A stretch of 34,278 nucleotides of DNA, from the NCBI GenBank assembly GCA_029553295.1, contig JAKPCK010000098.1:1-34278 (forward strand), read 5' to 3'. Position numbers and translations under genes: made by a program. Shown one piece after another: positions 10,194 to 34,229 of the stretch; within the stretch, counting starts at the first letter, position 1, and every line of letters begins with the position of its first letter. Source of the DNA: Deltaproteobacteria bacterium. GTDB taxonomy: Bacteria > Desulfobacterota > Syntrophorhabdia > Syntrophorhabdales > Syntrophorhabdaceae. The notes beneath the pieces were generated by a model. It was given only the letters and a program-made list of their open reading frames with translations. It was not told the origin of the DNA and did not search any database.

Positions 10194-10607
10194 ATGGATA
10201 CAAGGAAATCTATGTTCAGGCCCAAAGGATTTTCCCTGGTAGAACTTATAATTATAATTGTTGTGTTGGGCATAATTGCCGCAGCGGTTATATATAAAGT
10301 GGGCTCTATAAAATCAGACGCATCATCCAAAGCAGCAGTAGACCAGGTCATAGCCGATATACAGTATACCCAGATACTTGCCATGTCCCAGGAAGCACAG
10401 AAAAGCATATCTTTTACTGCTGGCTCCACTACATATACGGTTGCTGGTGAGACAAAAAAACTCCCCGGTGATGTAACAGCAGGAAATACCATAACATTTA
10501 CATTTAATTCCCTCGGAGAGCCCATTGCAGGTGCAGGCGCAACGGTAACAATCGGGGATAAACAGATAAAGGTCTGGGCAATAACAGGAAAGGCTGAGGC
10601 ACTATGA
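10194..10607 (+). CDS. Type IV prepilin-like protein (GspH/FimT/MshC type)
   Basis: A short basic leader (residues 1-12, MDTRKSMFRPKG) precedes the prepilin peptidase site G|FSLVE with the conserved Glu at mature position 5. A 20-residue hydrophobic helix IIIIVVLGIIAAAVIYKV follows. The remaining globular part (about 35-137) is small and Thr/Ala-rich. The length of 137 aa fits minor pilins of the GspH/FimT/MshC class, which start pilus or pseudopilus assembly at the inner membrane. The ATG abuts the glycosyltransferase stop and the 3' end overlaps the next gene by 4 bp. The class assignment within minor pilins rests mainly on gene order. Confidence 0.82.
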   Translation: MDTRKSMFRPKGFSLVELIIIIVVLGIIAAAVIYKVGSIKSDASSKAAVDQVIADIQYTQILAMSQEAQKSISFTAGSTTYTVAGETKKLPGDVTAGNTITFTFNSLGEPIAGAGATVTIGDKQIKVWAITGKAEAL

Positions 10608-11086
10608 AAGGCTTTCATATCCCCATACTACCCAAGGCCCTGTGCCCTTATAGATGGATTTCCAACAATAGACAAAAAAGAGGTTTTACCCTCATTGAGC
10701 TTATAATCTTTATTGTCATTGCCGGGCTTTTTGTCCCTTTAGCATATATAGCCTTTACAACAGCACTCAAAAGCGGCACTACCCCTGAATCCATCACAAG
10801 GGCGAGATTTCTTGCAGAACAGAAACTCGAGGAGATTACAAAGGATGATTTCGACACAATTGTTACAACCTATCCACCGCCCACAAGCACATCCTATGCC
10901 AGTATCCCAAACAATAGCGGTTATCAATGGAAGTGGACTGTGGGTTATATAACCTACAGCGGCACCCCCCCTGTCATCTCTGATTCAGCATCTCCAACCA
11001 ATTACCTTAAAATAATAGTCTATGTGAGAGAGCCCAGTGGATACGAATATGTTGTCCATACTATTATAACAAAAAGGCCGGGTTAG
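10604..11086 (+). CDS. Type IV prepilin-like protein (PilV/MshD type)
   Basis: The leader here is long for a prepilin: about 27 residues including IPILPKALCPYRWISNNRQ, before KRG|FTLIELIIFIVIAGLF. A later start is possible but no better ribosome site is seen. The G|FTLIE site and conserved Glu are intact. Downstream, ITRARFLAEQKLEEI is the pattern seen in PilV/MshD-like minor pilins. The C-terminus is beta-rich (PSGYEYVVHTIITKRPG). The product is 160 aa. It overlaps the preceding gene by 4 bp and is 6 bp from the next. Confidence 0.8.
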   Translation: MKGFHIPILPKALCPYRWISNNRQKRGFTLIELIIFIVIAGLFVPLAYIAFTTALKSGTTPESITRARFLAEQKLEEITKDDFDTIVTTYPPPTSTSYASIPNNSGYQWKWTVGYITYSGTPPVISDSASPTNYLKIIVYVREPSGYEYVVHTIITKRPG

Positions 11087-11092
11087 GAAGTT

Positions 11093-11650
11093 ATGGTGAA
11101 AGACAAGGGTTTTACATTGATAGAGATAATCATCACTATTGTTATACTGGGGATAATAGGGGTATTCTCCTTTTCATTCTTTGGCTATCTAACACGGACA
11201 TACTCAATGATGGGATCAAAAAGAACTGTCCATCAGGAGGCCCTCTATGCCATAGAGAGGATATCAAGGGAGTTAAGGGATGCTAAGGAAGTCAATGTAA
11301 ACAACAATGTATTGCAATTCGAAAGGGCAAATCCTACAGGACAGGACAGTAATAAATATGTAAAATTTTATCTTAATGGCACTGACCTCTATCGGGATTC
11401 GGCAAGTGACAGTGGCTTTACGACGAACACTACCCATAATATCATTGCAAGAAATGTCACTTCCTTTACCGTATCACCCAGTGGCACACCCCTTGCATCT
11501 AATACTGTAATAACCATCTCTATAGGTGTTACCAGTGGTGAGACAGAGTCATATTCCACAAAGATCTGTCCAAAAAATTATTCAGATACAGGGGTATGCA
11601 CTTTTACAGGAAGGAGTTTTGGAGGCTGTTATGAAGATAAGATTAACTGA
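11093..11650 (+). CDS. Type IV prepilin-like protein (PilW/MshO type)
   Basis: The short leader MVKDKG is cleaved before FTLIEIIITIVILGIIG, with Glu5 present. After the helix comes TYSMMGSKRTVHQEALYAIERISRELRDA, the conserved PilW/MshO segment. The rest is a beta-rich domain with two Cys near the C-terminus (KICPKNYSDTGVC and GGCYEDK). The product is 185 aa. It overlaps the next gene by 20 bp, with the next start and ribosome site inside its 3' end. Confidence 0.85.
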   Translation: MVKDKGFTLIEIIITIVILGIIGVFSFSFFGYLTRTYSMMGSKRTVHQEALYAIERISRELRDAKEVNVNNNVLQFERANPTGQDSNKYVKFYLNGTDLYRDSASDSGFTTNTTHNIIARNVTSFTVSPSGTPLASNTVITISIGVTSGETESYSTKICPKNYSDTGVCTFTGRSFGGCYEDKIN

Positions 11651-12491
11651 TAGGGGGGTATCCCTTGTTGTCTTAATTGTGATTATAACAGTCCTTGGTT
11701 TTTTAGGTGCAGGCATAGTCTCCTTTATGGGTGCCAAACACAGGGCCTATCCTGTTCATGTCCAATCCCATCAGGCACTCAGCCTTGCCAATGCAGGGAT
11801 TGAATTTGCTATTAGATATGCCTATGATAAATATCAGATAGGTCAGTCTGTTAAGGACTGTCTCGGCTCCCCTGTTACGGTAAATTTTGGTAATGGTAGC
11901 TTTACAGTCCAGTATATAGGCGGCTCTAATTATACATTAAAGTCAGTAGGTACTTGCGGCAGTGCCACAAGAGAGGTAAGGCTTAATAAATTCCCTGGTT
12001 ATAGTATGGGATCCGGCTTTGTATTGACCAGTACAATAGATCCAGCTTATATTCCCTCATACCATAGTTCAAATGTCTCAGTGCCATTAACCAACCTCTA
12101 TGACCAGCCCATATACATAAAACGTATGGAATTGACCATGAACCCTACCCAAGGAAGTGCCAACCGTGTCCAGACCCTATATTTGGGGGGAACCAAAATA
12201 TACGATTATAAAGATGATCCATCAAACCCCAACAAAGAAGGTCATGGAGCAAATGAGGGTATATGTATCCCCACATCTGGTGGCGCTGGTTGTCCTACTG
12301 GTTCTTTGACACCTGCTAAGATACCTTATGCCTTTAATCTCAACACTGCCATACCCCCAGGGGGTATTACAGAGATTCTAAATTTTAATTCTGCCTCTGT
12401 TAGGGGTTCATACTGGGTTAAATTTACTTATGATTTTAATACAAGCTATACAAATGAAAAGACAGCTACAATGACCTTCACAATAGATTAA
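11631..12491 (+). CDS. PilX/MshP-like pilus assembly protein
   Basis: I chose the ATG at 11631 because GGAGG lies 5 nt upstream and because it puts a short leader before the hydrophobic helix. The frame stays open further upstream but without an initiation signal. The protein starts MKIRLTDRGVSLVVLIVIITVLGFLGAG, a prepilin-like site in which the usual Glu5 is missing, as in PilX/MshP-class proteins. QALSLANAGIEFAIRYAYDKY follows, the typical PilX region. The large C-terminal domain (about 105-286) is beta-rich and has SGGAGCPTGS. With the three previous genes it reproduces the MSHA minor-pilin order C-D-O-P. No mshQ, secretin or ATPase follows. Confidence 0.78.
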   Translation: MKIRLTDRGVSLVVLIVIITVLGFLGAGIVSFMGAKHRAYPVHVQSHQALSLANAGIEFAIRYAYDKYQIGQSVKDCLGSPVTVNFGNGSFTVQYIGGSNYTLKSVGTCGSATREVRLNKFPGYSMGSGFVLTSTIDPAYIPSYHSSNVSVPLTNLYDQPIYIKRMELTMNPTQGSANRVQTLYLGGTKIYDYKDDPSNPNKEGHGANEGICIPTSGGAGCPTGSLTPAKIPYAFNLNTAIPPGGITEILNFNSASVRGSYWVKFTYDFNTSYTNEKTATMTFTID

Positions 12492-13599: not shown

Positions 13600-14595
13600 A
13601 TGAAAAACATCTATGAGGATAACTCGTATTCTATAGGTAGAACACCTCTTGTTCGGCTTAACAGGGTTACTGATGGTGCGCACGCAACGGTGCTTGCAAA
13701 GATAGAGGGTAGAAACCCCGCATACTCTGTAAAATGCCGTATAGGTGCGGCCATGATATGGGATGCCGAGCGGACAGGCAGACTGAAACCAGGCATGGAA
13801 ATTATTGAGCCCACATCAGGCAATACAGGCATAGCCCTTGCCTATGTGGCTGCAGCAAGAAATTACAGACTAACACTTACCATGCCTGAGACCATGAGTA
13901 TTGAGAGGAGGAAACTCCTTAAGGTCTTTGGTGCCCATATCATACTCACAGAAGGTGCAAAGGGCATGAGAGGTGCCGTAGAGAAGGCAGAAGAGATAGC
14001 AAAGAGTGATCCATCCCGATATTTTATGCCCCAGCAGTTTGAAAACCCTGCCAACCCGGCCATTCACGAGGCAACAACTGCGGTAGAGATATTAAACGAT
14101 ACAGATGGAAAAATGGATATATTCGTAGCAGGTGTAGGGACAGGTGGAACCATCACAGGGGTGAGTAGATTCTTTAAAAGGATAAAGGGAAAGAATATTA
14201 TCTCTGTTGCTGTGGAGCCTGCCCATTCGCCTGTATTGACCCAGACTGTAAAAGGTGAGGAAATAAAACCAGGCCCACACAAAATACAGGGAATAGGAGC
14301 AGGTTTTGTACCTAAGGTACTCGATTTAAGCCTGATTGACAGGATTGAGCAGGTGACAAATGAAGAGGCTATGGAGATGGCAAGGAGGCTTGCAAGAGAG
14401 GAAGGAATTTTATCCGGCATATCATGTGGTGCAGCGGTTACGGCAGCAATAAGAATTGCAAAAGAACCTGAAAACAATGGAAAGACCATTGTTGTTATAC
14501 TCCCTGACTCAGGGGAGAGGTATCTATCCACCCCTTTGTTTGAAGGTATATTCACAGGTATTGAAAAGGCAGTGGCATCAGATGAGGTTTTATGA
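13600..14595 (+). CDS. cysK: Cysteine synthase (O-acetylserine sulfhydrylase)
   Basis: The PLP enzyme joins sulfide to O-acetylserine to give cysteine. The pyridoxal lysine is in [19 protein letters not shown] (Lys45), the Asn loop is [15 protein letters not shown] (about 68-82), the phosphate-binding loop is [15 protein letters not shown], and [12 protein letters not shown] and [11 protein letters not shown] close the active site. Length (331) is slightly over the usual 310-320. The start follows TAGGAGG, and TATAAT lies at 13574-13579. It heads a + strand group with larE and mnmA, facing hydE and cysE. CysE supplies its substrate. Confidence 0.95.
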
Positions 14596-16778: not shown

Positions 16779-17825
16779 TTATTTCTTACCCCTGTGCATC
16801 TTTACTGAGTGTCCAGGACCTAACCCAATCTTCCTTCCAATAGATTCTATCCTTGAAAGCACACAACTTGAGCACTCTTGGGCACTTTCATCAATACAGG
16901 GTTTACCGGGATAGAGGAGATAATCTTTTCTATACTCAACAGGTGTATTATTTGGCATGAATACGTTGGCGCCCCGCTTTAAGGCAAGATTTCTCCCCTC
17001 ACCGGGAAAGACGGCGTCAAAGGCCGTTGTGGCCGGGATGTGGGCATCAGGGTTGAATAGGCGAAGTACAGCGAGGGCCTTGAAGAACATCTCCTCTTCT
17101 CCTGCGTATGCATTTTTTTCATCTGCCAGTGGTGTATCGGGGTGGGGGATAAAAGGCCCAATGCCTATCATGTCAAGGTCGAGGTCACGACATAAGAGGA
17201 TGTTATCCGCTAATGTGCCGAGTGTCTCCCCGGGGAGTCCAATCATGAAGCCACTGCCTGTCTGAACACCCAATTCCTTTAGGGCATAGAGGCAATCCAG
17301 CCTTTCGTAAAGGGTGCAATCTGGGTGAAGTCTTGCGAACAGAACAGGGTCACTCGTTTCGAATCTGAGAAAGTATCGGTCCATGCCACATTCTTGCCAG
17401 TATCGATAAATCTCACGGGGTCTGTTTCCCACTGAAACCGTTACAGCAAGAGAGGTCTCAGCTTTGATCATCTTTATTATGTTGCCTATCTCCCTGTCGT
17501 TTATACCTGGGGTCTCTCCAGATTGGAGGACAACAGTTGTCTGCTGGCGTAAAGGCATCTCTCGGGCAACGGCAAGAATCTCATCCAGGGTCATGGTATA
17601 GCGGTTCACCAGGTGGTTAGATGCCCTTATACCGCAATAGAGACAATCATTGTTACATATATTGGAAAATTCTATAATCCCCCGTATGTATACCTCATCC
17701 CCCATGTGAACCTTTCTGATGTGGTCTGCCTGTTCATACAGTTCAGTGAGGTCATTGCCCTTAGACTTAAGAAGAGACACCACCTTATCCTTCAAGGCCT
17801 TTGATTCCCTGCCATTTTCTATCAT
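16779..17825 (-). CDS. hydE: [FeFe]-hydrogenase maturase HydE-like radical SAM protein
   Basis: The radical-SAM motif is IIEFSNICNNDCLYCGIRA, with Cys57, Cys61 and Cys64 in the 348-residue form. The C-terminus contains PCIDESAQECSSCVLSRI, a Cys-x7-Cys-x2-Cys pattern like the second cluster site of Thermotoga maritima HydE. EFSNICNNDCLYCG and GFMIGLPGETLGTLADNI are typical of HydE. HydE helps build the H-cluster diiron subsite with HydF and HydG. Neither is in the window and no hydrogenase is nearby, so a related methylornithine-synthase-like role cannot be excluded. I chose the ATG at 17825, with AGAGGG 7 nt upstream; another in-frame ATG is at 17843. It lies 147 bp after cysE. Confidence 0.82.
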   Translation of the reverse strand: MIENGRESKALKDKVVSLLKSKGNDLTELYEQADHIRKVHMGDEVYIRGIIEFSNICNNDCLYCGIRASNHLVNRYTMTLDEILAVAREMPLRQQTTVVLQSGETPGINDREIGNIIKMIKAETSLAVTVSVGNRPREIYRYWQECGMDRYFLRFETSDPVLFARLHPDCTLYERLDCLYALKELGVQTGSGFMIGLPGETLGTLADNILLCRDLDLDMIGIGPFIPHPDTPLADEKNAYAGEEEMFFKALAVLRLFNPDAHIPATTAFDAVFPGEGRNLALKRGANVFMPNNTPVEYRKDYLLYPGKPCIDESAQECSSCVLSRIESIGRKIGLGPGHSVKMHRGKK

Positions 17826-17989
17826 AACAAGCCCTCTTTTCATAAAAGTAATATAATACCTAAAACAGTAAAAAATAGATAGGTTTGTTTAAGTGCAGGC
17901 AAGGAGTAGTCATTGTGGGAAAAAAGGGATGGGTCAATAAATAATAGCTGCTCCATCATCTTCTATCAAGGCATAAAGATGACGATACC

Positions 17990-18958
17990 CTATTTAAAGG
18001 CATCTTTTATTTTTTTTACAATAAGCTCAGGTTTTTTTAGGAACACCTCGGTATCCGGTGGAATAGATTCTGTTAGCCATACGTTTCCACCTATGACAGA
18101 GCGGGCACCTATTACAGTATTGCCACCCAGTATAGTGGCATTTGCATAAATAATCACATCATCCTCTATGGTGGGGTGGCGTTTTTTCCTGCGAAGGGAT
18201 TCCACCTCTTCTTTGCTCAACGATAGGGCACCCAGGGTTACACCCTGATAAATCCTCACACGGTTGCCTATCTTGGTAGTCTCACCTATAACTACACCTG
18301 TGCCATGGTCGATAAAGAAACTCTCACCGATCTCAACACCCGGGTGTATGTCAATCCCTGTAAGGCTGTGGGCATATTCAGTCATTATCCTGGGGATTAA
18401 AGGCACTTCATGGATATGGAGCCAGTGGGCTATTCTGTAAACACTTATGGCATATAATCCGGGATAGCAAAATATAATGTCATCAAAATGACATGAGGCA
18501 GGATCTCCCTCATAGGCTGCTCTTACATCCTTTGATAACATCAGCTGAATCTCAGGGATTGCACCTATAAACTGTAGTGCTATCTCCTGCCCCTTTTCCT
18601 CACAATAGACACAGGGTCTATTAAACCTCAAACAATCATGGCGTATTGCAAGGGTTACCTGCTCTGAAAGGGTATCAAAAAGCTCAGTTACCTTCTGTCC
18701 AAAATAGTACTGGATTTTCACTTCATCAAGACGCTCGGATGTAAAATATCCAGGGTATATAATCTTGAGTGTCCTGCCTATAATGTCTACAATTGCCTCT
18801 TTTGAGGGTATGGATTCGGGCAGGATATGGTGAAAGCGACCGTCCCTGTTATAGAGACCTATAATTCTATCTATATATTTGGGCAGTTCTGCTCTTTTCT
18901 GGTTCTTCTCAAGAATCTCTTTTAAACACTCTTGCCTGTCATCTAAATTTTCTTTCAT
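17990..18958 (-). CDS. cysE: Serine O-acetyltransferase, long form
   Basis: The enzyme makes O-acetylserine from serine and acetyl-CoA, the substrate of CysK. A left-handed beta-helix of hexapeptide repeats occupies about residues 210-305 (HPGVEIGESFFIDHGTGVVIGETTKIG, then VRIYQGVTLGALS, and IYANATILGGNTVIG). His195 or so in EYAHSLTGIDIHPG belongs to the active-site region. The N-terminal domain (about 1-175) is longer than in E. coli-type CysE and holds Cys109, Cys116 and Cys119 (HDCLRFNRPCVYCEEKG), as in SrpH-like long forms; these could bind metal or be redox active. The gene starts 9 bp after nifS ends, so it belongs to the nifU-nifS operon. Confidence 0.92.
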   Translation of the reverse strand: MKENLDDRQECLKEILEKNQKRAELPKYIDRIIGLYNRDGRFHHILPESIPSKEAIVDIIGRTLKIIYPGYFTSERLDEVKIQYYFGQKVTELFDTLSEQVTLAIRHDCLRFNRPCVYCEEKGQEIALQFIGAIPEIQLMLSKDVRAAYEGDPASCHFDDIIFCYPGLYAISVYRIAHWLHIHEVPLIPRIMTEYAHSLTGIDIHPGVEIGESFFIDHGTGVVIGETTKIGNRVRIYQGVTLGALSLSKEEVESLRRKKRHPTIEDDVIIYANATILGGNTVIGARSVIGGNVWLTESIPPDTEVFLKKPELIVKKIKDAFK

Positions 18959-18967
18959 TTGAATACC

Positions 18968-20149
18968 CTAAACACTGCTACATGCCTCTTGTTCATGTCT
19001 CCAGTACGGTGACATCTGTCTTAGCCTTTCGATGATCTTTGGCATGACATCTATGACGAAATCTATCTCCTCTTCTGTATTGTAAATGCTGAGACTGAAA
19101 CGCACAGAGCCGTGAATCATTGTATAGGGCACACCCATAGCCCTGAGCACATGGGAGGGCTGGATGGAGCCCGATGTGCAGGCAGAGCCTGAAGATGCAC
19201 ATATACCGTACTGGTCTAAGAGCAAAAGTATACTCTCACCCTCCACAGATTCAAAGCTCATGTTGGTTGTATTGGGTAGCCTGTTTTGTCTGTGGCCGTT
19301 TACCTTACATCGGGGAATCTTTTTTAGCAGGGCGTTTTCAAGCCTATCCCTTAATGATTTTACATAATTATTTTCCCTCTCCAAATTGAGATAGGCAAGC
19401 TCACAGGCCTTTCCAAGCCCTATTATGCCAGGCACATTCTCTGTGCCTCCCCTTCTTCCTTTTTCCTGATGACCTCCTATTAAAAACGGTGAAAAGCTCG
19501 TCCCCTTTCTTATATAGAGTATGCCTATCCCCTTTTGTGCATGGAGTTTGTGTCCGGAGATGGAGAGCATATCTATCTCATTGTTTTTCATGTTTATGGG
19601 TATCTTGCCTGCTGCTTGGACCGCATCTGTATGAAACATAATACCCCTTTCTTTTGCAATGGATGCCATTTCCTCCACAGGGAAGATAACGCCTGTTTCG
19701 TTGTTTGCCCACATGATGCTCACCACTGCTGTATCAGGGGTAAGAAAGCGTCTATAGGCATCCATATCTATCATACCATCGCTGTCAACGGGTAGTTCGG
19801 TTACCCTGTAGCCCTTTGCAGCGAGCCTCTCGCATAGCACCTTTACTGCAGGATGCTCCACCCTGCTTGTGACTATATGGTTCTTGCCGGGATTTACTGA
19901 AAGGGCAGATAGTATTGCAGCATTGTCGCTTTCTGTCCCGCAGCTTGTAAATACAATCTCATCGGGCTCTGCTCCAAGGAGGGATGCCGCCTTCTCCCTT
20001 GCCTCGGCTATCTTTTTTGCCACCTGACCGCCAAAGGTATGGATACTGGAGGGATTTCCGTATAGATCGCGAAAATAGGGGAGCATCTCTTCTAATACTT
20101 CAGGTGCCACCATTGTTGTGGCATTGTTGTCGAGATAAATGGTCTTCAT
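18968..20149 (-). CDS. nifS: Cysteine desulfurase NifS/IscS
   Basis: This PLP enzyme releases sulfur from cysteine as a persulfide. The PLP lysine is Lys201 in SISGHKLHAQKGIG, and the persulfide-forming Cys324 sits in CASSGSACTSGSIQPSHVL. The block YLDNNATTMV begins the protein, and IMWANNETGVIFPV and RGGTENVPGIIGLGKA are conserved. The length of 393 and the RxGT/SGSACTSG spacing are of the NifS type (group I). Its start overlaps the nifU stop by 4 bp, which indicates translational coupling. With NifU it forms a complete donor-scaffold pair. Confidence 0.95.
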   Translation of the reverse strand: MKTIYLDNNATTMVAPEVLEEMLPYFRDLYGNPSSIHTFGGQVAKKIAEAREKAASLLGAEPDEIVFTSCGTESDNAAILSALSVNPGKNHIVTSRVEHPAVKVLCERLAAKGYRVTELPVDSDGMIDMDAYRRFLTPDTAVVSIMWANNETGVIFPVEEMASIAKERGIMFHTDAVQAAGKIPINMKNNEIDMLSISGHKLHAQKGIGILYIRKGTSFSPFLIGGHQEKGRRGGTENVPGIIGLGKACELAYLNLERENNYVKSLRDRLENALLKKIPRCKVNGHRQNRLPNTTNMSFESVEGESILLLLDQYGICASSGSACTSGSIQPSHVLRAMGVPYTMIHGSVRFSLSIYNTEEEIDFVIDVMPKIIERLRQMSPYWRHEQEACSSV

Positions 20150-20985
20150 TGTGTAACCTCCTCTACAACTAAATCAGGTAAAACAATTTCTCTTAACTTT
20201 GCCTCCACAAAACCCTTGAGTGTTGCCTGTGAGGCCATACAGGATGCACATGCACCCCTTGTGGCTACAAGGATTCTGTTTCCTATGACATCTATGAGTT
20301 CTATATCCCCACCATCGTGTTTTAAAGAAGGCCTGATCTCTCTTTCAATGGCCTCTTCTATCATCTTTATCTTCTGGATATTGGTAAGTTTTGGCCTCCC
20401 TGCAGAGGGCTTTTTAATCTGTGTCTCCTCTGAATAAATCCGGTCTATTATGGCTTTTATCCTGTCACTACATTTTCCGCATCCACCCCCTGCCTTTGTA
20501 TAATTTGTAACCTCCTCTACTGTTGTAAGATGGTTCTGCGTTACTGCCCGCTCTATCTCGGCCTCTGTTACCCCAAAACATTCGCAGATAATTTTCTTGT
20601 CCGCTGTCTCTTCCTTTTTGCCGAGATAGCTGTCTATGGCCTTTGTGAGGGCCTCCTGACCAAGGACAGAACAGTGCATCTTTTCAGGGGGTAGCCCGCC
20701 GAGATACTGGGCAATATCCTGATTTGTAATCTTTGCAGCCTCCTCGATGGTCTTGCCCTTTATCATCTCTGTTAAGGCAGATGCAGAGGCAATAGCACTT
20801 GCACAGCCAAAGGTCTTGAATTTGGCATCTATTATCCTTTTGTTTTCATCGAGCTTGAATGTAATCTTTAAGGCATCACCGCATGCAATAGAGCCCACCT
20901 CGGCAACACCATCAGGGTTTTCTATCTCTCCTACATTTTTGGGATTTAGAAAATGTTCCCTTACCTTGTCTGTATAGTCCCACAT
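20146..20985 (-). CDS. nifU: Fe-S scaffold NifU, full three-domain form
   Basis: Three domains are present. An IscU-like scaffold (1-122) has Cys35 (SIACGDAL), Cys61 (TFGCASAIA) and Cys105 (MHCSVLG). A central Bfd-like [2Fe-2S] domain (about 132-183) has Cys134, Cys136, Cys169 and Cys172 (ICECFGVT and GGGCGKCSD). A C-terminal Nfu domain (about 205-279) has the CxxC pair Cys246 and Cys249 (RGACASCMASQATLKG). All ligands are intact at 279 aa. NifU receives sulfur from NifS and transfers clusters to apoproteins. The full form is typical of anaerobes and does not imply nitrogen fixation; no nif structural genes are present. The promoter lies in the palindrome shared with the Rrf2 gene. Confidence 0.96.
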   Translation of the reverse strand: MWDYTDKVREHFLNPKNVGEIENPDGVAEVGSIACGDALKITFKLDENKRIIDAKFKTFGCASAIASASALTEMIKGKTIEEAAKITNQDIAQYLGGLPPEKMHCSVLGQEALTKAIDSYLGKKEETADKKIICECFGVTEAEIERAVTQNHLTTVEEVTNYTKAGGGCGKCSDRIKAIIDRIYSEETQIKKPSAGRPKLTNIQKIKMIEEAIEREIRPSLKHDGGDIELIDVIGNRILVATRGACASCMASQATLKGFVEAKLREIVLPDLVVEEVTQ

Positions 20986-21036
20986 ATATTGCTCCTTATT
21001 TAAAATTTATCTTTAAAAAACGAAAATCACAACCAA

Positions 21037-21081
21037 AATATAAAGATAACCTTGACAATTGTCAAGGTAAAATCATATTAT
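21037..21081. promoter_or_regulatory. Divergent nifU / rrf2 promoters with -35 boxes in one palindrome
   Basis: The perfect 20-bp palindrome ACCTTGACAATTGTCAAGGT lies at 21049-21068. Each half carries a consensus -35 TTGACA. On the minus strand, TTGACA (21065-21060), a 17-bp spacer and TATATT (21042-21037) point to nifU. On the plus strand, TTGACA (21052-21057), a 17-18 bp spacer and ATATTA/TATTAT (21075-21081) point to the Rrf2 gene. A dimer bound here would cover both promoters at once. Given the adjacent gene, Rrf2 protein is the natural candidate. Confidence 0.85.
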
Positions 21082-21106
21082 TTCTATCAAATTAATAGGA
21101 AATAAA

Positions 21107-21553
21107 ATGAAGATATCCACAAAAGGCAGATACGGTTTACGCTCCATGATTGACCTTGCCATAAACAGTTCTGGCAATACACCTGTATTTATATCTGATA
21201 TTGCAAAGAGACAGCATCTCTCTGAAAAATACCTTGAACATATCTTCGGTGCCCTCCATAAGGCAGGCCTTGTGAGGTCTATAAGGGGCAGAAAGGGCGG
21301 GTATCTCCTTCAGAAAAACCCTGAAGAGATTACACTGAGCGAAATAATTACGGCACTGGAGGGAAAAATAAGCCTTGTTGAGTGCGTCTTGGACCCTGAT
21401 ATATGTCCTTCTGCAAAAAAGTGTGTAACAAGAGACCTCTGGCAGGGTTTAAGCGACAAGATAAACGAATACTTAAGTAGCCATACCTTGAATGACCTAA
21501 TTCAGATGCAAAAATCCAGAGAGCAAAACGACACCCTCATGTATTACATATAA
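21107..21553 (+). CDS. Rrf2/IscR-family Fe-S-sensing regulator
   Basis: The 148-residue protein starts MKISTKGRYGLRSMIDLA, the usual Rrf2 N-terminus, with a winged helix-turn-helix (IAKRQHLSEKYLEHIFGALHKAGLVRSIRGRKGGY, quoted in part: KYLEHIF and RGRKGGYLL). Cys93, Cys100 and Cys106 (CVLDPDICPSAKKC) are placed like the [2Fe-2S] ligands of IscR (92, 98, 104). It is divergent from nifU-nifS-cysE and shares the palindrome upstream, which points to autoregulation and control of cluster assembly by cluster supply. A cysteine-metabolism sensor (CymR-like) is less likely because all three cysteines are present. The ribosome site is a weak AGGA. Confidence 0.93.
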   Translation: MKISTKGRYGLRSMIDLAINSSGNTPVFISDIAKRQHLSEKYLEHIFGALHKAGLVRSIRGRKGGYLLQKNPEEITLSEIITALEGKISLVECVLDPDICPSAKKCVTRDLWQGLSDKINEYLSSHTLNDLIQMQKSREQNDTLMYYI

Positions 21554-30462: not shown

Positions 30463-33400
30463 TCATGCCGCCGCCCACTCTGCAGAGAGAAGGGCTGCCT
30501 GCTCCAGCACCGTCTCGGTGGCCTTTTCCTGCTTGTCCGGCGGGTAGCCGTACTTACGCAGGATGCGTTTTACCAGGCGTCGCAGGTTGGCGCGGACGTT
30601 TTCGCGCACTGTCCAATCAATGGAAGCATTCATTCGGACGGTCTGCACCAGTTCCTGAGCGATCCTCCTCAGTGTAGGCTCGCCGAGTACTTTCACCGCG
30701 CTATCGTTTGTCTCCAGTGCATCGTAGAAGGCAAGCTCTTCCTCGCTAAGTCCCAGTACCTCGCCCCGGCTGTCAGCCTCGCGCATGTCTTTTGCAAGCT
30801 GAATCAGTTCTTCAATGACCTGGGCTGCTTCTATTGCTCGATTTTGATAACGGCGGATTGCCTGCTCGAGCAATTCCGCAAAAGAGCGTGCCTGGACCAG
30901 ATTCTTCTTACGCCGCGTCCGAATTTCCCCTTGAAGCAGTTTCCGCAGGAGTTCCACGGCCAAGTTCTTTTGCGGCATCCCCCGCACTTCAGCCAGAAAC
31001 TCCTCGGAGAGGATGGAGATGTCAGGCTTCTTAAGTCCCGCTGCAGCGAATATATCTACAACACCTTCAGGTGCGATTGCACGGGAGACGATCTGCCTGA
31101 TTGCGTGCTCCAGTTCCTCCTCGGTTCGCTGCTCACCATGTGCCCGCTTTGCCAGAGCAGCGCGCATCGCCTGGAAGAAAGACACATCATCCCGGATGGC
31201 AAGGGCCTTCTCGTGGGGAACCGCAAGAGCAAAGGCTCGCGAGAGTTCGGACACTGATTTTAATAGCCTGTCTTTGCCATTATCCTGTGCAAGAATGTGT
31301 TCCTGGGCAGCAGGCATTAGTGCTATCCGCTGCTCAGGGCTGCCGGTTTTCCATATCGTCCAGTCAAAGCCGTAAAAGAGATTGCAACATACCTCGTACT
31401 TCTCAAGCATCACGGCTACAGCTTGCGCCTGGTCAATGGCTGTGGTGCCAGTGCCGCCGCTTTCCGTGTATGTCTTTAGTGCGGCTTTTAGTTCGTGAGC
31501 CAGACCCAGGTAGTCCACCACAAGTCCTCCGGGCTTGTCCCTAAACACCCTGTTCACCCGCGCAATGGCCTGCATGAGACCGTGTGCCCGCATTGGTTTG
31601 TCAATATACATGGTATGCAGGCTCGGGCAGTCAAAGCCAGTAAGCCACATATCCCGCACGATGACCATCTTAAAAGGATCATTTGGATTTCTAAAACGGT
31701 TGGCAAGGAACTCCCGACGGCGTTTGTCCCGGATGTGTGGCTGCCACTCTACAGGGTCCGAAGCAGAGCCGGTCATAACAATCTTTATCAGTCCCCGGTC
31801 GTCTGCTTCGTCGTGCCACTGTGGGCGTAGGGGCGGATGGCCATTAACCCCTACGCAAATAATGTTGTAAAGCTCCACACATATACGCCTGCTCATACAG
31901 ACCACCATGGCCTTGCCTTCTAAGGCCTCAAGGCGCTGTTCAAAGTGGTTCACTATGTCCTGGGCCACCAATCGGAGACGCTTCTCTGCACCGACAATGG
32001 CTTCCAGCTGCGCCCACTTGGTCTTGAGCTGCTCTTTACGTTCTATCTCTTCTCCCTCGGTGACCTCTTCAAACTCAGGGTCAATTCTTGGTTTTTCGTA
32101 CTCGTCCAGGTCCAGTTTGGCAAGACGGCTTTCATAGTAAATGGGCACCGTAGCACCATCCTCCACTGCCCGCTGGATGTCGTAGATGGAGATGTAATCG
32201 CCAAATACCGCGCGGGTGTTCCGGTCGGCAAGTTCAAGCGGTGTTCCGGTGAAGGCGATAAAAGAGGCATTCGGCAGGGCATCGCGCATGTGGCGGGCAT
32301 ATCCATCAATAAAGTCATACTGGCTACGGTGTGCTTCATCGGCAATAACCACAATGTTGTGGCGGTAGGATAACACTGTAGGGCCAGGCCTTGTGCCGGC
32401 CTCAAATGGGGAAACCACAAGGGTTGCCCCTATATCGGGAAGGAATTTCTGGATCGTAGTAAAGATGACCCCGCCAGACTGAGTAGCTAATTTCTCACGC
32501 AAATCAGCGCGGCTCTGTGCCTGAACTGGGATCTGGCGCAAAAGGTCCTGACAACGTGAGAACGTGCCAAAAAGCTGGTCGTCCAGGTCGTTGCGGTCGG
32601 TGAGCACAACTATAGTGGGATTTTCCATTGCCGGTTCCCGGATAATGCGTCCTGCATAAAACACCATCGTCAGACTTTTGCCCGAGCCCTGGGTATGCCA
32701 GATCACGCCAATGCGCCGGTCGCCCGGCTGCGCATCCTTGAATGTCCCTGAGCCATAGGGTGGTCGGGGTTCCGCAATCCCGCGCATAATTCGGCTGGCA
32801 CGCAGGGTTTCTTGTACAGCGACTTTGACCGCATGGAACTGATGGTAGCCTGCAATCTTTTTCTCCAGCCGACCGCTTCCATCATCTTCAAATACAATAA
32901 AGTCGGAGAGGAGAGCCAGAAACCGTGTTCTTTCGCAGATACCGTTTAAGAGCACCTGGAGTTGAGGGACACCCACATCCTCCACCTGTTCGCCGGAAAC
33001 TGTGCGCCACGGTTTAAACCATTCACGCCCGGCGGTAAGTGTCCCCAGCCGTGCCTCCAGGCCATCTGATATAATAAGTAATTCGTTTAATGCAAAAAGT
33101 GTTGGTAGTTCGGCTTTATAGGTCTGTAATTGCTGGAAGGCAGTCCAGATGGTTGCTTCTTCATCCGCTGGGTTTTTCAGTTCTATAATGGCAACTGGCA
33201 GACCATTCACAAACAGCACCATATCCGGACGCCTTGTATGTTGATTTTCGGTGACGGTGAATTGATTGACCGCCAGCCAATCGTTGTTTTCAGTATCATC
33301 AAAATCAACGACGCGGGCTTGAGCGCCTGCGATACTTCCATCCGTTCGGCGATATTCTACCGTGACGCCATCGGTGAGCATACGGTGAAAGGCACGGTTA

Positions 33401-33654
33401 CGTGCCTCCAGTGTCGCACCCGGCGGATTTATTATGCGACGGAAGGCATCCTCCAGGGCTTCGGGTGGCAGGTCGGGATTGAGCCGTGTCAGGGCATCGC
33501 GCAGGCGAGCGCCAAGAACCACCTCGCGGTAATCAGTCCGCTCGGCAAAAAGACCGTCAGGGGCGATCTCCGGGCCGTAGGCGACATGCCAGCCAAGGGA
33601 TTCGAGCCAGGTGAGGGCTGCGGATTCAAGATGGGATTCAGTCAATACCGCCAT
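30463..33654 (-). CDS. hsdR: Type I restriction endonuclease subunit R
   Basis: The 1063-residue motor-nuclease subunit has an N-terminal PD-(D/E)xK domain ([21 protein letters not shown], cited in parts: RPDMVLFV and AIIELKN, about 158-178). A superfamily 2 helicase follows with Walker [18 protein letters not shown] (about 322-338), [10 protein letters not shown] (about 447-456) and [19 protein letters not shown] and VMTGSASD belong to the second helicase lobe. The frame is complete. Between CVELYNII and RPQWH it carries about ten extra residues ([10 protein letters not shown]) coming from a palindromic insert at 31825-31856. The start overlaps the transposase gene by 13 bp. Base composition and codon use (GCG, CGC) differ from the host genes, in line with transfer. 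Confidence 0.95.
31825..31856. repeat. REP-like palindrome inside hsdR
   Basis: GCGTAGGGG (31825-31833) pairs perfectly with CCCCTACGC (31848-31856) and the 14-nt centre contains the self-complementary ATGGCCAT. The outer arms share GTAGGGGCGG with the elements inside the transposase gene. The insertion keeps the hsdR frame and is read as [10 protein letters not shown] at a place where type I R subunits I know continue without it. Confidence 0.8.
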
Positions 33655-34229
33655 ATGACCTCCGGTTCTGGTGCGGTGGCCTCTGGGTTTTCACGGTCCC
33701 ATGTCCAGCGGGCGGGATTATGGAATATGTATTGGCGGATCCGGTTCAATGAATCCTCGTTGCGGATGATGTGTTCATAATAATTGCGTTGCCAGACCGG
33801 CAGACCGGGCGTGCCACGCAATTCATTGATGTGGCGCGATGAAAACGTTTTGAATGCCCGAACAATTTCCGGCAAACCGTGTTTGGCCGTAGGGGCGGGT
33901 TTCAAACCCGTCGTTATCGTAGGGGCGGGTTTCAAACCCGCCCCTACAATGATGATAATTCCGTGAACATGATTTGGCATAACAACAAATGCATCCAATT
34001 CCACATACGGGTAATGATTTGGCAAATCATTCCAAACGCCGTGCACGATTCGCCCTGCATCGTTCAATCGCATTTCCCCAGCCACCACCTCGCCGAACAG
34101 GCACGCACGGTTATGCGTGCAAATGGTGACAAAATACGCCCCGACCTGCGAATAATCGTATCCCTTGATGCGGATGCTGCGGCGGTGGTGGCGGGTTTGA
34201 AACCTGTCCGTACAATTTTGATCAATCAT
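33642..34229 (-). CDS. REP-associated tyrosine transposase (RAYT, Y1/IS200-like)
   Basis: The 195-residue protein has the RAYT pattern: [25 protein letters not shown] (short: [10 protein letters not shown] at 32-41), the metal-binding HxH in [14 protein letters not shown] (His87, His89) and the nucleophile Tyr150 or Tyr151 in [13 protein letters not shown], then [12 protein letters not shown]. RAYTs cut and join single-stranded REP hairpins and are usually domesticated single-copy genes. Between the HxH motif and the tyrosine, residues 95-114 ([10 protein letters not shown] and TGLKPAPT) are encoded by REP palindromes inserted in frame. The ATG overlaps the upstream stop as ATGA, and the stop overlaps the hsdR start by 13 bp, so it is read as part of the hsd operon. 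Confidence 0.9.
33889..33947. repeat. Two REP palindromes in the RAYT gene
   Basis: The unit GTAGGGGCGGGTTT-C-AAACCCG occurs at 33889-33910 and again at 33919-33940, 30 bp apart. The second is complete: GTAGGGGCGGGTTT (33919-33932) and AAACCCGCCCCTAC (33934-33947) form a perfect 14-bp stem with one central base. The 30-bp spacing, a multiple of three, keeps the frame. On the coding strand each unit reads (G)LKPAPT. Confidence 0.93.
34184..34214. repeat. Degenerate REP-like copy at the RAYT start
   Basis: GGCGGGTTTGAAACCTGTCC with flanking GT and GTACAA resembles the REP unit with several changes. It encodes part of residues 6-14 of the transposase, directly after the start codon. Confidence 0.55.

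Follow-up and report, generated by a model that had tools for sequence, protein, structure and literature searches.

Back-to-back −35 boxes probably account for a perfect palindrome between nifU and rrf2, with a predicted Rrf2 operator beside it

The nifU-rrf2 locus and its regulator

The window, which is the whole stretch of 34,278 nucleotides analysed here, carries a full-length nifU and an rrf2 gene that diverge across a gap of 121 bp, and a perfect palindrome sits in this gap (Table 1). The closest relatives found are Syntrophorhabdus-type deltaproteobacteria. At an E value of 0.001 or better, 73 of the 99 genomes searched have a match to the Rrf2 protein. The top-scoring ones belong for the most part to the same family and order, and none was found in either of the other genomes of the genus (G001 and G002). 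Genome G001 has kept nifU (88% identity), but neither rrf2 nor the palindrome is present there; hydE lies directly upstream of nifU in that genome (L124). Elsewhere in the window, a run of pilin-like open reading frames occupies 10194-12491 on the plus strand, the first with the N-methylation motif PF07963 and the rest judged by eye, and at 30463-34229 on the minus strand a type I restriction HsdR-type gene adjoins an IS200-like (Y1) transposase open reading frame. The minus-strand gene at 320-1816 matches PF05136 with 326 bits, which makes its product a phage portal protein of the lambda family; standing at the contig end, it is a phage remnant or prophage edge.

Table 1. Features of the nifU-rrf2 region, in window coordinates
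Feature	Position	Strand	Remarks
cysK, cysteine synthase	13600-14595	+	about 7 kb away
hydE, [FeFe]-hydrogenase maturase	16779-17843	-	last gene listed of the run behind nifU; directly opposite rrf2 at 6 of the 11 divergent loci
cysE/epsC-type serine acetyltransferase	17990-18958	-	downstream in the nifU run
nifS, cysteine desulfurase	18968-20149	-	overlaps the end of nifU
nifU, full-length scaffold	20146-20985	-	NCBIfam NifU 361 bits; NifU_N, Fer2_BFD and NifU domains
nifU promoter −10 box TATATT	21042-21037	-	17-bp spacer
nifU promoter −35 box TTGACA	21065-21060	-	
Perfect palindrome, 20 bp	21049-21068	none	ACCTTGACAATTGTCAAGGT; inner 14 bp, 21052-21065, TTGACA-N2-TGTCAA
rrf2 promoter −35 box TTGACA	21052-21057	+	exact TTGACA in 17 of 19 rrf2 promoters
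rrf2 promoter −10 region	21074-21081	+	TATTAT 21076-21081 (18-bp spacer) or CATATT 21074-21079 (16-bp spacer)
Predicted Rrf2 operator	21083-21099	none	TCTATCAAATTAATAGG (CTAY-N7-RTAG); follows the rrf2 −10; 7 nt before ATG
rrf2, Rrf2-family regulator	21107-21553	+	Pfam Rrf2 138 bits; Cys93, Cys100, Cys106; C-terminal MYYI

The rrf2 product belongs to the Rrf2 superfamily (domain PF02082, 137.8 bits against a cut-off of 30; TIGR00738, 139.4 bits against 73.3). Its best NCBIfam equivalog by score is the CymR model NF047409, at 144.2 bits and below the cut-off of 195, and the IscR model TIGR02010 gives 138.2 bits, likewise below its cut-off of 207.55; all 21 aligned Rrf2 members match both models. 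The closest solved chain is 4CIC (profile 151 bits), which we take to be the IscR of Thermincola potens and which also ends in MYYI, followed by the CymR-type chains 3LWF, 2Y75 and 3T8R and then by IscR. The three conserved cysteines of cluster-binding Rrf2 proteins are present with the spacing CX6CX5C, and these residues and Ile148 are invariant in all 21 aligned orthologs; the three cysteines plus the final Ile recur in 24 of 24 order-level Rrf2 sequences. As judged from this pattern, the cysteines could hold an Fe-S cluster. A structure model (mean pLDDT 88) predicts a winged-helix fold in which residues 142-148 form a loose tail, so that the tail is flexible in spite of its conservation. 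According to the available text of two sources (PMC4961446, PMC12895370), CysE and CdiA-CT dock into CysK by means of a C-terminal Ile, and CymR is named as a CysK partner. The Ile tail of the window protein could dock into CysK as well, which we regard as a lead and not a result. The CysE/EpsC-type acetyltransferase of the window ends in LIVKKIKDAFK, without a C-terminal Ile for CysK docking, and the Rrf2 protein ends in MYYI.

The palindrome and the two promoters that meet in it

A first-pass annotation of this DNA had placed the −35 boxes of both promoters in one perfect 20-bp palindrome, and the palindrome is exact at 21049-21068. The annotation had also read a TTGACA in each direction, each with a −10 box, and this reading stands: sigma-70-type −35/−10 pairs at 16-18 bp are present on both strands (Table 1), and the rrf2 promoters of relatives have spacers of 16-18 bp. 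Given these boxes, the nifU transcript would start near 21030 and that of rrf2 near 21088, and the two inferred starts would lie about 58 bp apart.

The palindrome is the sole perfect one in the window with arms of at least 9, and simulated sequence of the same dinucleotide make-up holds a mean of 0.25 palindromes with arms of at least 9 and 0.075 with arms of at least 10. It is thus unusual, but not extremely so, before its position in a divergent gap is counted. No further match was found in the window at up to three mismatches, nor any in 100 shuffles, and the exact form CCTTGAC-N4-GTCAAGG occurs a single time in the whole genome. When up to three mismatches were allowed, this form was found at 114 places per strand of the genome versus 48 for the reversed control, an excess that we suspect to be coding-sequence word bias. 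Among the six best places (0-2 mismatches), four were inspected, namely the window site and three sites with two mismatches, each of the latter overlapped by an open frame (104-372 codons). The palindrome also appeared as terminator-like on the minus strand in a scan; this listing was given no weight because the element is upstream of the inferred nifU start.

The rrf2 promoters of 19 loci were compared, consisting of the window and 18 of the 23 other order-level loci; the remainder (L095, L096, L100, L102, and L106) were left out, as rrf2 lies directly behind cysK on the same strand there. With the window included, rrf2 is divergent at 11 loci and faces nifU in five and hydE in six, while the eight other loci have either an upstream gene in the same direction (five) or an unrelated divergent open frame (L090, L092, and L094). 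The shared layout of both −35 boxes, which the first-pass annotation had described for the window, is kept in relatives: the full TTGACA-N2-TGTCAA is present at 6 of the 11 rrf2 promoters facing nifU or hydE, window included, versus none of the eight others (Fisher p 0.017). At all six loci with the full core, a leftward −10 box matching at 5/6 or 6/6 positions lies exactly 17 bp away, whereas a box of that quality at 16-18 bp was found in just 1 of 13 loci without the core (p 0.0003). The extra symmetric pairs of the window at distances 1, 8, 9, and 10 from the centre are kept in 1, 1, 4, and 1 of the five relatives with the full core, and in relatives the symmetry does not extend beyond the two −35 hexamers. 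At 5 of the 11 divergent loci, the leftward −35 matches poorly, at 2-4 of 6 positions, and the shared layout is therefore not essential.

Consensus −35 boxes would stand back to back here, 2 bp apart, where two strong promoters meet. Two such boxes alone make a 14-bp palindrome, and back-to-back boxes are thus the simplest account of the element; the remaining four symmetric pairs in the window genome may be due to chance or drift. On the strength of these comparisons, we consider it probable that the palindrome represents the back-to-back −35s of two sigma-70-type promoters and that Rrf2 binds the nearby CTAY-N7-RTAG dyad instead.

The first-pass annotation had proposed that the palindrome is itself the Rrf2 operator, such that a single dimer bound over the two −35 boxes would close the promoters in both directions. 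Its perfect symmetry does exceed what two −35 boxes need, it has a single exact copy in the genome, and its inner 14 bp recur at five relatives. However, none of the eight rrf2 promoters outside the nifU- and hydE-facing group has the right half, relatives have lost most of the extra pairs, and the palindrome was not seen by eye in the cysK promoters inspected. Its half-site geometry is GAC-N4-GTC, without the 7-bp half-site separation of known Rrf2 operators: according to the available text, RisR of Myxococcus xanthus binds GAC-N7-GTC (PMC9973013), and in three solved Rrf2-DNA complexes (NsrR, IscR, and RsrR sites) the central 7 bp are without base-specific contacts (PMC9338935). Moreover, a better candidate dyad is available. 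As such, the palindrome is quite unlikely to be the Rrf2 operator, and the proposal did not hold up.

It is also conceivable that the palindrome serves as the operator of a different dimeric protein, such as a CRP/FNR-family regulator, that represses both promoters from a centre at about −29. Sites of the CRP/FNR family have the spacing TTGAN-N4-NTCAA, which is also that of the inner core TTGAC-N4-GTCAA, present at six loci. A genome scan gave no enrichment, with five exact TTGAY-N4-RTCAA sites in 2.25 Mb against 8.6 expected under even base use, and three of the other four sites lie under open frames of at least 70 codons. The element also comes and goes with the divergent promoter, and we hold such a role to be very unlikely.

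A predicted operator at the rrf2 start

The dyad at 21083-21099 reads CTAT-N7-ATAG and has the 7-bp half-site separation. It scores 16/16 and is the only exact genome match to YCTAYYAANTTRRTAGR. Against this pattern, 16 of the 19 rrf2 promoters reach at least 13/16, a count that is descriptive and not independent because the pattern was drawn by eye from rrf2 promoters; those of L092, L093, and L105 score just 11-12/16. The dyad centre lies 38-43 bp after the start of the −35 box across the rrf2 promoters, and relatives carry CCCATAAAGTTAGTAGG, CCTACTAAATTAGTAGG, and TCTACTAAAATAGTAGG in the same place, including loci without a divergent nifU. The first-pass annotation had suggested that the palindrome might define a new class of Rrf2 operator, and this suggestion has to give way, as the conserved dyad is another one, with N7 spacing, and recurs before cysK.

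The cysK promoters yield counts that are freer of pattern bias than the count of rrf2 promoters. Only cysK of the window type (at least 78% identity) was considered. Among family members in the first set of genomes, a cysK dyad of at least 13/16 was found in 7 of 13 genomes with Rrf2 versus 0 of 6 without it; in a second set of genomes that was fetched later, the counts were 3 of 4 and 0 of 5. Both sets together give 10 of 17 with Rrf2 versus 0 of 11 without (p 0.0015), a p value that is too small because of shared ancestry within the group of genomes that have Rrf2 and within the group that lack it. Genomes without a window-type cysK were left out of the first set (G003, G005, G007, G008, G014, G015, G016, G023, and G025) and of the second (G016, G029, and G037), as were the extra-family loci, namely G039 (12/16), G041 (13/16), G052 (10/16), and other cysK types of less than 72% identity. 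Two genomes have two copies each: for G018, with two window-type copies, one copy (C110) was left out of the count, and for G031, with 14/16 on the rrf2 contig and 9/16 on another contig, the better copy was counted. The cysK promoter of the window itself has no clear dyad (11/16, p 0.6). Since the dyad also precedes cysK in relatives, the Rrf2 protein is probably a cysteine/Fe-S regulator that stands between CymR and IscR.

The signal fades beyond the order: in a set of 17 homologues that come mostly from outside it, six reach 13/16 (combined p 0.015), weak evidence on which the dyad was not accepted as a phylum-wide operator. A perfect 17-bp form, CCTACTAAGTTAGTAGG, precedes rrf2 in G046, which belongs to another family of the phylum. 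In Clostridia, Rrf2 homologues ending in MFYI (L044, L045, and L046) share an element ATCCTATAGG...ATGGGTGAT in the last 30 nt before the start codon, and this element fits the same 17-bp frame, as CCTAT-N7-ATGGG.

A large regulon in the window genome was considered and rejected. The pattern YCTAYYAANTTRRTAGR at up to two mismatches gives 21 genome matches, fewer than the 43 of the reversed control. Fifteen genome loci of dyad matches were read, of which one is the window site with the one exact match and 12 further loci lie under open frames of at least 120 codons; L136 does not, and L137, near a contig end, was left out. The sole clear dyad site found in the window genome is the one at rrf2. 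A scan of 27 regions upstream of nifU, 200 nt each, did not make nifU a regular member of the regulon: sites of at least 13/16 occur only beside rrf2 (G000, G022, and G035) and in G031. In G000, G022, and G035, the site is the rrf2 operator viewed from the opposite side; G031 also has its own.

In G031 (L085, L066), this second operator-like dyad, CCTATTATTTTTATAGG, scores 14/16 and lies 42 nt before nifU; nifU still faces rrf2 in this genome, and of the palindrome the leftward −35 is decayed. The separate dyad hints that some control of nifU by the Rrf2 regulator is worth keeping. It also bears on whether both dyads matter, with Rrf2 binding tightly to 21083-21099 and weakly to the palindrome, or with two dimers cooperating. 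A distance of 32.5 bp, or roughly three turns of the helix, separates the two centres, and nifU of G031 has an operator-like dyad where the palindrome is decayed; against this stands the absence of the palindrome at other rrf2 and cysK promoters that bear the predicted operator. We give this combination only a slim chance. From its position and recurrence, the CTAY-N7-RTAG dyad at 21083-21099, and not the palindrome, is the most likely binding site of the Rrf2 protein. Searches covering open-licence papers turned up no description of this dyad operator in Syntrophorhabdus-type bacteria.

Control of the divergent genes and comparison with known systems

Under the preferred reading of back-to-back promoters with a separate Rrf2 operator, the polymerase sites of nifU and rrf2 overlap, so that only one would be filled at a time. 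An Rrf2 dimer on 21083-21099, over its own transcript start, would repress rrf2, as the position and conservation of the dyad suggest. The nifU-nifS-cysE genes may be tuned by competition between the promoters or through an Rrf2 dimer sitting at about −61, and would not be shut together with rrf2; a dimer on the dyad might leave nifU unaffected, relieve it, or even help it. If transcripts are assumed to start 7 nt after each −10, the distance from the dyad centre to the inferred nifU start downstream of it is 61 bp in the window, and it is 61-62 bp in all six full-core loci. With the predicted operator placed on the start of rrf2 but well upstream of that of nifU, competition or opposite control of nifU and rrf2 appears likelier than joint shut-off. 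The first-pass annotation had assumed that a single dimer shuts both promoters; this fits poorly with a predicted site for which rrf2 is the only promoter whose core it overlaps, the inferred nifU start being about 61 bp away with the site upstream of it.

It is possible, though rather unlikely, that one dimer at 21083-21099 both blocks rrf2 and aids the polymerase of nifU-nifS-cysE, giving opposite control combined with Fe-S and cysteine sensing. In such a two-way switch between regulator and assembly genes, the dimer would sit 61-62 bp upstream of the inferred nifU (or hydE) start in all six full-core loci. If true, one and the same Rrf2 protein, with its cluster cysteines and CysK-docking tail, would sense the state of Fe-S clusters as well as that of cysteine. 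This Rrf2 group, with cluster-type cysteines and a CymR-like Ile, raises the question of whether one protein joins cysteine supply to Fe-S assembly. The analysis provides a testable predicted operator, CCTAYNAANTTAGTAGG, and a target, cysK, for the Syntrophorhabdus-type Rrf2 group, and it corrects an easy error, as back-to-back consensus −35 boxes mimic a perfect operator.

Among known systems, CymR of Bacillus and Staphylococcus, a cysteine repressor that works with CysK, resembles the window protein in the C-terminal Ile tail, which is also present in the 3LWF chain, and in the link to cysK, a predicted target here through its sites in relatives. The CymR-CysK complex is described in the available text of PMC2940859, PMC3828012, and PMC4961446. 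The window protein differs in having cysteines of the cluster type, three in number; for CymR of B. subtilis, the available text of PMC9338935 states that no cluster is bound. IscR shares the three cysteines and has genes that adjoin those of Fe-S assembly, but the window protein has Arg at the position of the IscR ligand His107 (ligand according to the available text of PMC8593673), and the IscR operator is unlike the predicted window operator. In what is available of PMC3828012, the IscR and CymR motifs are said to resemble each other.

RisR is a deltaproteobacterial Rrf2 repressor of Fe-S operons that, in the accessible part of PMC9973013, shares the N7 spacing and the −10/start position with the window dyad, binding at isc across the −10/start region; the RisR half-site is GAC, however, and that of the window dyad is CTAY. 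In Clostridium perfringens, the Rrf2-iscS-iscU-trmU genes (cpe1786-1783) place an Rrf2 protein that shares 50% identity with CymR next to genes for a desulfurase and a scaffold, and they respond to cysteine limitation according to the available text of PMC2940859. These adjacent genes are regulated together, whereas the window promoters are divergent.

Bidirectional bacterial promoters, as described in the available portions of PMC12825309 and PMC10268837, likewise have a symmetric promoter element at which one polymerase excludes the other, and activation of one direction from −60.5 shuts off transcription in the opposite one (same sources). In E. coli bidirectional promoters, improving one −35 makes competition matter (PMC12825309, available text). 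Those promoters share a −10 and have starts 7-25 bp apart, whereas the window has abutting −35 boxes and inferred starts about 58 bp apart.
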